A stretch of 64,000 bases of DNA, taken from Liolophura sinensis (lineage: Eukaryota; Mollusca; Polyplacophora; Chitonida; Chitonidae). Shown one piece after another: positions 53,901 to 56,900 of the stretch (position 1 is its first letter; each line of letters begins with the position of its first letter). The stretch is taken from positions 434,001-498,000 of the forward strand of contig NC_088307.1 of NCBI RefSeq assembly GCF_032854445.1, given 5' to 3'. The notes under the pieces were generated by a model. It saw only the letters and a program-made list of their open reading frames with translations. It was not told where the DNA came from and did not search any database. The position numbers and the translations under genes are program-made.

Positions 53901-56900
53901 CACCTTAGAAAATAACTAAGTCTATATTATTTCCTGTCTGCTCTACAATTCTTGGGTGTGAATTTTTATTGATATATGCATATATTTAACTCAGTATCAG
54001 CTAAAGATAACCATAGCACACGACATCCCATTAAGTCAAGACCGCAGTGTTTGTTAAGCTGTAAACGCATGTCAATATATAATGTACATGCATTTGTACG
54101 ATTCCTCAACTGTATGTAAATTTACCTGCTTTTGCATACGCCACTGCAATTTCCGCAAGACGTGAAATACTTGCTTCATTGTGTACTGTCCCATCTTCAA
54201 ACAGTATACCTGCAAACATCAGACAACAGACATTTATTCAGTTGGAGTTCAAAGCCGTATATTCAGCAACACATACAGAGATCACTAATCGCAGTGTCCA
54301 TGTGAAGTGTAGACACTGATACAGAGGTCACTAACTGCAGTGTCCATGTGAAGTGTAGAGACAGATACAGAGATCACTAACCACAGAGTCCATGTGAATT
54401 GTAGACACAGACACAGAGATCACTAACTAGTGTCCATGTGAAGTGTAGACACTGATACCGAGATCACTAACCACAGTGCCCATGTGAAGTGTAGACACTG
54501 ATACAGAGATCACTAACCTCAGTGTCTATGTGAGGTGTAGACACAGGAACAGAGATCACTAGCCACAGTGTCCATGTGACGTGTAGACACAGAGATCACT
54601 AACCAGTGTCCATGTGAAGTGTAGACACCGATACAGAGATCACTAACTACAGTGTCCATGTGAAGTGTAGAGACAGATACAGAGATCACTCACCACAGTG
54701 TCCATGTGAAGTCTAGAGACAGATAGACGTCACTAAACACAGTGTCCAAGTGAAGTGTAGAAACAGAGATCACTAACCACAGCGCCCATGTGAAGTGTAG
54801 ACACTGATACAGAGATCACTAACTACAGTGACAACGTGAAGTGTAGACACAGATACAGAGATCACTAACCACAGTGTTCGTGTGAAGTGTAGAGACTGAT
54901 ACAGAGATCGCTAACCACAGTGTCCATGTGAAATGTAGAGACAAATAAAGGTCACTAACTAGTGTCCATGTGAAGTGCAGATACAGACATCACTGACCAT
55001 GGTGTCCATGTGAAGTCTAGATACAGATAGAGGTCACTAACTACAGTGTCCATGTGAAGTGTAGATACAGATAGAGGTCATTAACCACAGTGTCCATGTG
55101 AAGTGTAGAAACAGAGATCACTAACCACACTGCCCATGTGAAGTGTAGACACTGATACAGAGATCGTTAACTACAGTGTTCATGTAAAGTGTAGACACAG
55201 ATACAGAGATCACTAACCACAGTGTCCATGTGAAGTATAGAGACTGATACAGAGATCGCTAACCACTGTGTCCATGTGAAGTATAGAGACAAATAAAGGT
55301 CACTAACTAGTGTCCATCTGAAGTGTAGATACAGAGATCACTGACCATGGTGTCCATGTGAAGTTTAGAGACTGATACAGAGATCGCTAACCACAGTGTC
55401 CATGTGAAGTCTAGAGACAAATATAAAGATCACTAACCACAGTGTCTATGTGAAGTGTAGACACAGATACAGAGATCACTTAACCACAGTGTCCATGTGA
55501 ATTTGAGAGACATATACAGAAATCACTAACTACAGTGTCCATGTGAAGTGTAGATACAGAGATCACTGACCATGGTGTCCATGTGAAGTACAGAGACAAA
55601 TATAAAGATCACTAACCAAAGTGTCTATGTGAAATGTAGATACAGAGATCACTGACCATGGTGTCCATGTGAAGTGTAGATACAGATACAGAGATCACTG
55701 ACCATGGTGTCCATGTGAAGTACAGAGACAAATATAAAGATCACTAACCAAAGTGTCTATCTGAAATGTAGATACAGAGATCACTGACCATGGTGTCCAT
55801 GTGAAGTGTAGATACAGATACAGAGATCACTAACCACAGTGTCTATTTGAAGTGTAGATACAGAGATCACTGACCATGGTGTCCATGTGAAGTGTAGATA
55901 CAGATACAGAGATCACTGACCATGGTGTCCATGTGAAGTACAGAGACAAATATAAAGATCACTAACCAAAGTGTCTATGTGAAGAGTAGATACAGAGATC
56001 ACTGACCATGGTGTCCATGTGAAGTGTAGATACAGATACAGAGATCACTAACCACAGTGTCCATGTGAAGTGTAGATACAGAGATCACTGACCACAGTGT
56101 CCATGTGAAGTACAGAGACAAATATAAAAATCACTAACCACAGTGTCTATTTGAAGTGTAAATACAGAGATAACTAACTATGGTATCTATGTGAAGTGTA
56201 GATACAGATACAGAGATCACTAACCACAGTGTCCATGTGAAGTGTAGGGACAGATACAGAGATCACAGGCAAGCAGTAGTCCCGGGAACCAGGTCTTCAA
56301 TGCCTTGAGAGCAAGTATGACAGGGGTATTTGGAGAGTCCGCAGAAGATCCTCTCGCATCCTGGAAGTTTCAAAACTGTTTGAGATAGATGTATACATTA
56401 CTTCCATGTGGAATGTATAACGAAGACATGAAATCCCAGCCAGTTAACACAATACATCGCCTGACAACAGACCATACAACGACTGAAAAAATGAATTCCA
56501 GGGACTTGACTACATGCATCAGGACTGAACCTGGGTCTTTAAGCTTATGAAAGAGGAGCCTGGAACAACTAATGACAACACTGTTTGTACAACGTAGTGG
56601 GTCCAGACACCCAGGTATTCAGCTGACTGCAATGGTGTCATCCGGCAGGCAAAAACAAGTTTTTAATCTCCTTGAAAAGCTACAGTACATGTATGAAAGT
56701 CATACTGAGTGGTATGCAGGGCTAGTATTTCTGACCTTTGGTAAGTTCGTAGGTACCCCAAACAGCAGCACACATTTCAGACCCTTGTCAACCAGGGGAG
56801 ATAACACCTGCCTCAGTTTGTTGATACCGTAACGACACTGACCTGGCATACTGGCCACTGGCTGTACACCATTTGCATCATCTCTGTCCAAACAACAAAC

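Follow-up and report, generated by a model that had tools for sequence, protein, structure and literature searches.

How does an intron come to consist almost entirely of copies of the exon end and splice site that precede it, and how can a gene live with such an intron? Intron 3 of ALAD in the chiton Liolophura sinensis raises this question. The gene lies within the 64,000-nucleotide stretch of DNA that we analysed (the window, C13:434001-498000).

The gene itself is complete. Its exons join into a frame without an internal stop, all eight introns run from GT to AG, and the protein matches Pfam ALAD. It is also identical (100%, full length) to an NCBI Liolophura sinensis entry, which confirms the gene identity given in the initial annotation. 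An 11-residue stretch with the cysteine motif aligns to human ALAD in a protein alignment. The cysteines encoded at the end of exon 3 are those that bind the catalytic zinc. Because the identity to the public protein is full-length, the public model must splice at the first donor of intron 3, and that model could itself rest on homology inference. Table 1 lists the features of the gene together with those of a second gene described below.

Table 1. Coordinates of features in ALAD (positions in the window) and in the ADF-H gene (positions on contig C13, to which the window belongs).
Feature	Position	Strand	Basis or matches
ALAD gene, nine coding exons, 324 aa	44916..60709	(-)	open frame, homology
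ALAD exons	60709-60612, 56883-56736, 56360-56225, 54209-54126, 53232-53088, 51706-51619, 49411-49325, 48762-48633, 44974-44916	(-)	
Exon-derived part of the 46-bp unit (final 40 nt of exon 3)	56225..56264	(-)	gene model and unit alignment
Genuine intron 3 donor GTTAGT, last 6 nt of the first unit	56219..56224	(-)	gene model
Intronic array, 44 copies and an 11-nt partial, exon-end-plus-donor unit	54273..56224	(-)	TRF and alignment
Unique 3' end of intron 3 including the acceptor, not unit-derived	54210..54272	(-)	sequence
Second array, 93-bp unit: last 68 nt of exon 8 and 25 intron nt, 24 intronic copies	46423..48700	(-)	edge search
Third array, 43-bp unit: last 36 nt of coding sequence with TAA and 7 nt	44755..44951	(-)	edge search
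ADF-H donor-side array, 45 bp, exon end and donor	after 656318, to 657386		24 matches, mean identity 94%
ADF-H acceptor-side array, 82 bp, intron end and start of the next exon	657411-658739		17 matches, last partial, 97.7%
ADF-H exon between arrays	658759-658900		
ADF-H second donor-side array, 49 bp, end of exon 658759-658900 and donor	to 660904		40 matches, 83%

The unit of the intron 3 array joins the end of exon 3, which encodes 13 residues and the first base of a glycine codon, to the first six intron bases. We aligned positions 54273-56264 to this unit (40 exon and 6 intron nt) with a wrap-around alignment and obtained 46 units: the exon unit, 44 intronic copies and the 11-nt partial. 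The unit, its tandem arrangement and the place of the genuine exon at the gene-5' edge of the array, as fixed by the minus-strand gene model, are thus as first described; only the estimate of about 42 copies was too low. Tandem Repeats Finder (TRF) reports a 46-bp array of 45.4 copies at 54269-56266 and additionally lists periods of 86 and 132 bp. Set against the end of exon 3, these limits place the start of the array 40-42 nt inside the exon. Most intronic units measure 46 bp (24 copies), the others 40 (10), 44 (7), 38 (2) and 47 bp (1). Their identity to the exon unit averages 0.898 over aligned columns, ranging from 0.804 to 1.000, and they fill the intron as claimed, with 1,952 of its 2,015 bp (97%). 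The similarity is far beyond that of shuffled sequence: when the exon unit is aligned locally to intron 3, the best score is 82 out of a maximum of 92, while 500 shuffled units reach a mean of 16 and a maximum of 25. Searching the 609-Mb assembly (632 contigs) with exon 3 gave matches that are, among those listed (at least 24), confined to the ALAD locus. The cysteine codons were said to be kept in most copies. Codon by codon this is correct (30, 24 and 25 of 44), but all three together survive in only 7 of 44, counts that depend partly on where the alignment places the 6-nt deletions.

The copies derive from the exon. A single alignment column separates the two: the exon carries C, all 32 scorable copies carry T, and the other 12 are gapped. 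The column is the middle base of a proline codon, and among 120 homologs listed of 8000 scored, the site is proline in 100 and alanine in 20. Codons for both residues need C, hence the base common to the copies is derived, and the exon retains the ancestral one. The exon-to-intron direction proposed earlier is therefore supported, and so is an origin at the DNA level, since the unit contains intron bases. The same column leaves the edge unit outside the homogenisation of the array, and identity to the exon shows no trend with array position (Spearman 0.11, P=0.48). Counted by codon position, the copies have 70, 73 and 37 substitutions at first, second and third sites; third positions are not enriched, which does not fit coding constraint. 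Both ends of the unit have GT in common, compatible with slippage or end joining.

Reading through the genuine donor yields ...SHGHCG and then immediately a stop. Use of a later donor would therefore truncate the protein, as the initial annotation had pointed out, and near-identical later donors are abundant. GT is retained in 41 of the 44 copies and the exact GTTAGT in 25, again in line with the earlier claim, and 10 copies equal the genuine donor context over 11 nt. Intron 3 holds 39 GTNAGY sites, 38 of them after the genuine donor. In a rough duplex model of pairing with the U1 5' end, 17 of the 41 GT copies are at least as strong as the genuine donor, three of them stronger. For the suggestion that these decoys have consequences we see no sign: GT is kept at 93% versus a mean identity of 90%, and the public ALAD protein fits splicing at the first donor. 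In intron 3 the decoys are neither purged nor clearly favoured.

The picture drawn in the initial annotation was incomplete. It missed two more arrays in ALAD, the minisatellite setting of the window, similar arrays in other genes and a precedent outside molluscs. The 13 coding exons whose upstream and downstream edges we searched with comprise the nine of ALAD and four of an adjacent ankyrin-repeat gene, located by means of a Liolophura protein (an alternative 3' terminal exon of this gene, at about 26577-26539, is not among them); we counted matches of at least 24 nt and at least 30 bits. The downstream edges of exons 3, 8 and 9 gave 44, 24 and 4 matches. Three matches to the upstream query of exon 9 also appeared; this query contains the same 59-nt exon as the downstream one. 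A single weak 26-nt match of an exon 6 edge to an array in intron 1 was taken as chance. The remaining edges of the 13 exons had no matches, nor did any of 520 shuffled edges.

The exon 8 array has a mean identity of 0.872 and has treated its donor differently. GT remains at the original donor in 13 of 24 copies, with GC in 6 and GA in 5, and just upstream of it AC has become GT in 20 of 24. Reading through exon 8 adds 30 aa before a stop. That the original donor is gone from 11 of 24 copies may be a trace of selection against decoys, though most copies gained the new GT just upstream. In intron 3, by contrast, GT is retained. Within positions 46423-48632, 17 of the 24 copies carry a new donor that is absent from the exon (GAG/GTGAGC in 11, GAG/GTAAGC in 6). 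The exon 9 array, with four further copies in the 3' UTR of which the last is partial, lies beyond the stop codon and hence can only lengthen the 3' UTR. A 57-bp array in intron 7 was considered as a decayed edge array and rejected, as 28 of 500 shuffles scored as well as its best match. At 49301-49340 the donor region of exon 7 has about 15 nt in common with this adjacent array, either as the trace of a decayed edge array or by chance.

How surprising such edges are depends on the repeat content of their surroundings. Minisatellites make up 48% of the window, in 35 merged arrays chosen by hand from 89 TRF rows with short rows dropped, and tandem arrays cover 64% of the two gene spans. We placed 14 arrays at random 5000 times within the spans of ALAD and the ankyrin-repeat gene. 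A mean of 5.8 exons is then expected to be swallowed by an array or to hold one; we observe none, hence selection excludes arrays from coding interiors. Three downstream edges are spanned versus 1.2 expected (P=0.10) and no upstream edge versus 0.9 expected (P=0.39). The edge overlap in the window is thus within chance for so minisatellite-rich a region. That only downstream edges are affected (3 of 13) is likewise not significant, and acceptor-side arrays do occur in other genes.

To look beyond the window we added 220 kb around it and 50 kb on another contig, at the round-number position C1:1,000,001, chosen blind. Of the 284 kb that include the window, 38% is tandem repeat; for the C1 stretch the figure is 71%. 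In another chiton, Tandem Repeats Finder assigned 9.21% of the genome to repeats (PMC11545220); by this measure the stretches examined here are rich in tandem repeats. Genes outside the window were found by scanning for open exons that run into the edge of an array. In the 270 kb, six or seven edges are amplified in two genes, on donor and acceptor sides, with up to 209 copies. A 54-bp in-frame repeat at 590 kb of the contig and other candidates from the scan were without support and are not counted.

One of the two genes encodes an ADF-H protein (Pfam Cofilin_ADF, E 5e-18) and has three amplified edges (Table 1). Its 2,440-bp intron is nearly all two facing arrays, one on the donor side and one on the acceptor side. 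A contiguous ADF-H domain, as in the homolog P0242, requires the first donor and the last acceptor, those nearest to the exon bodies. Decoys are again numerous: with the genuine site set aside, 37 of 39 scored copies have GTGAGT and 15 of 16 have TTCCAG. In 20 shuffles the donor edges gave no matches; the T-rich acceptor edge gave 11 in total versus 17 real ones.

The second gene is ABCA-like and lies on the minus strand of C1. One of its exons matches ABCA transporters in PDB (E 3.6e-15) and is followed by 17 donor-side copies of 41 bp; another, weakly matching ABCA1 (E 0.0037), has 209 donor-side copies of 68 bp. Two further open frames on C1 adjoin an array each, one with 27 copies of a 98-bp unit on the donor side and the other with 16 copies of a 64-bp unit on the acceptor side. 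As neither of these frames has a Pfam or PDB match (best PDB E 0.73 for one, none for the other), we regard them as probable exons only, and no Pfam family scored above cut-off for any of the four exons or frames. Shuffled C1 edges had no matches. The copies keep GT in 27 of 27 (98 bp), 17 of 17 (41 bp) and 178 of 209 (68 bp) and AG in 12 of 16. Acceptor-side arrays thus occur outside the window, at an ADF-H exon and a putative ABCA-like one, while those in the window are all at downstream edges. The 209-copy array takes up about 14 kb of a single intron (C1:1027531-1041838), and its unit holds the ABCA-like exon end and donor.

These arrays are mirage-type structures, a kind already known from amphioxus. 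Mirages are tandem repeats that span exon-intron boundaries, described in Adh3, the globin genes BflGb6 and BflGb9, TnC and PGBD5 (PMC3087553, PMC3902484). There, splicing is reported as normal despite the repeated splice signals, array length as unstable, and edge copies as staying outside homogenisation. The chiton arrays share a minisatellite-like unit that crosses the boundary with its splice signals (at ALAD exons 3 and 8 and in the two other genes), repeated signals (GT in the exon 3 and exon 8 copies counted above) and an edge unit that is not homogenised, as in intron 3. Both kinds of boundary are affected in both animals, here on the donor side in the window and on the acceptor side in the ADF-H gene and the putative ABCA-like exon. 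However, the chiton is a mollusc and not a cephalochordate, one of its arrays lies over a stop codon, and one of its introns consists almost entirely of two facing arrays. Copy number also differs, with 44 and up to 209 copies versus 6 and 3 in the haplotypes of amphioxus BflGb6. We found no report of such arrays from a mollusc in our searches of open-licence papers. Tandem duplication of an intron donor is also part of the stwintrons of Lipomyces, but there duplications of 4-7 nt (PMC7138796) give a nested intron, whereas the chiton units measure 41-98 bp and are present in many copies. Ordinary intronic minisatellites show the same tandem turnover and drift; the chiton unit differs in taking in coding sequence and a splice site.

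To explain the intron 3 array and its relatives, we propose neutral tandem expansion of DNA across exon edges, sheltered by exon-proximal splicing, which we consider a likely account of these mirage-type minisatellites. A segment across the boundary of exon 3 and intron 3 would have been duplicated in tandem by slippage or unequal exchange. The intronic daughter may then have multiplied, through the turnover usual for tandem repeats, until there were 44 copies; these drift, whereas the exon copy is maintained because selection acts on the ALAD protein. Such an array would be tolerated because the spliceosome takes the sites nearest to the exon body: the first donor in a donor-side array and the last acceptor in an acceptor-side one. 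The persistence of decoy sites in other genes and the sparing of coding interiors support the neutral reading. Alternatively, splice junctions could be preferred birthplaces of minisatellites, through a process tied to the junction rather than random placement. The recurrence speaks for such a process: ALAD and the ADF-H gene have three amplified edges each, and the ABCA-like gene, in a stretch chosen blind on another contig, has up to four. Yet the window counts of downstream and upstream edges do not depart significantly from the random placement above, and no rate can be obtained from the other genes, as these were found by a scan that seeks arrays. We therefore hold a junction-tied origin to be unlikely.

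Very improbable, in our judgement, is a function for the decoy donors, by which array length would set the share of truncated ALAD transcripts and thus heme synthesis. Any later donor in intron 3 would indeed lead to a stop at once, and 10 of the 44 copies equal the genuine donor in 11-nt context, while 17 of 41 at least match it in rough U1 strength. However, the donor columns are conserved to about the same degree as the other columns of the unit, and similar arrays sit in unrelated genes and beyond the stop codon, where there is no donor to choose. Intron 3 might also owe its origin to an exon segment duplicated in tandem, an intron gain of the sort suggested for amphioxus mirages (PMC3087553); given that the last 63 nt of the intron, which include the acceptor, bear no relation to the unit, we put hardly any weight on this. 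An assembly artefact is conceivable at first sight, because arrays of tandem repeats pose difficulties for assembly and heterozygosity in chitons is high (PMC12005716). But the copies are about 10% diverged from the exon unit, the array has the longer TRF periods as well, the coding sequence around the three ALAD arrays is intact and the same anatomy recurs in other genes, so that an artefact has next to no probability. Neutral expansion across exon edges remains the reading that we prefer.

Such arrays are apparently recurrent in this genome. The amphioxus mirage is thereby carried into a second phylum, at larger scale and with apparent commonness: a single housekeeping gene has three arrays, one intron is made up of two arrays that face each other, and another contains its donor region in 209 copies. 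It is tempting, but for now doubtful, to generalise that the introns of this chiton grow from their own edges, that edge copies account for a considerable fraction of its intron DNA across the genome and that splicing reliably passes over dozens to hundreds of near-identical decoys in favour of the sites closest to the exon body. If this were true, the genome would be a natural experiment on exon definition. If the arrays are common, their genes would provide ready tests of how the spliceosome chooses among near-identical sites and would reveal one way in which introns become longer.

Other repeats in the window deserve a brief description. No Rfam family reached its gathering score in the window, and ten open reading frames picked by eye had no Pfam match above cut-off. 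The first intron of the ankyrin-repeat gene holds a 64-bp array of about 69 copies (30486-34828) with a longer internal repeat; two open reading frames in this array (31594-32061 and 32211-32678), 617 bp apart, have an identical translation of 155 aa. Long open frames also run through the 42-bp arrays at 35043-35921 and 38020-39392 (289 aa on the minus strand and 470 aa on the plus strand), probably as a by-product of a period that is a multiple of three and not as genes. A dispersed element of 130-160 bp occurs at 4983-5141, 41145-41306 and 2345-2473, with copies 77-78% alike, and may be a SINE of a kind known from molluscs. One of its copies sits within a 45-bp array (39854-42230).
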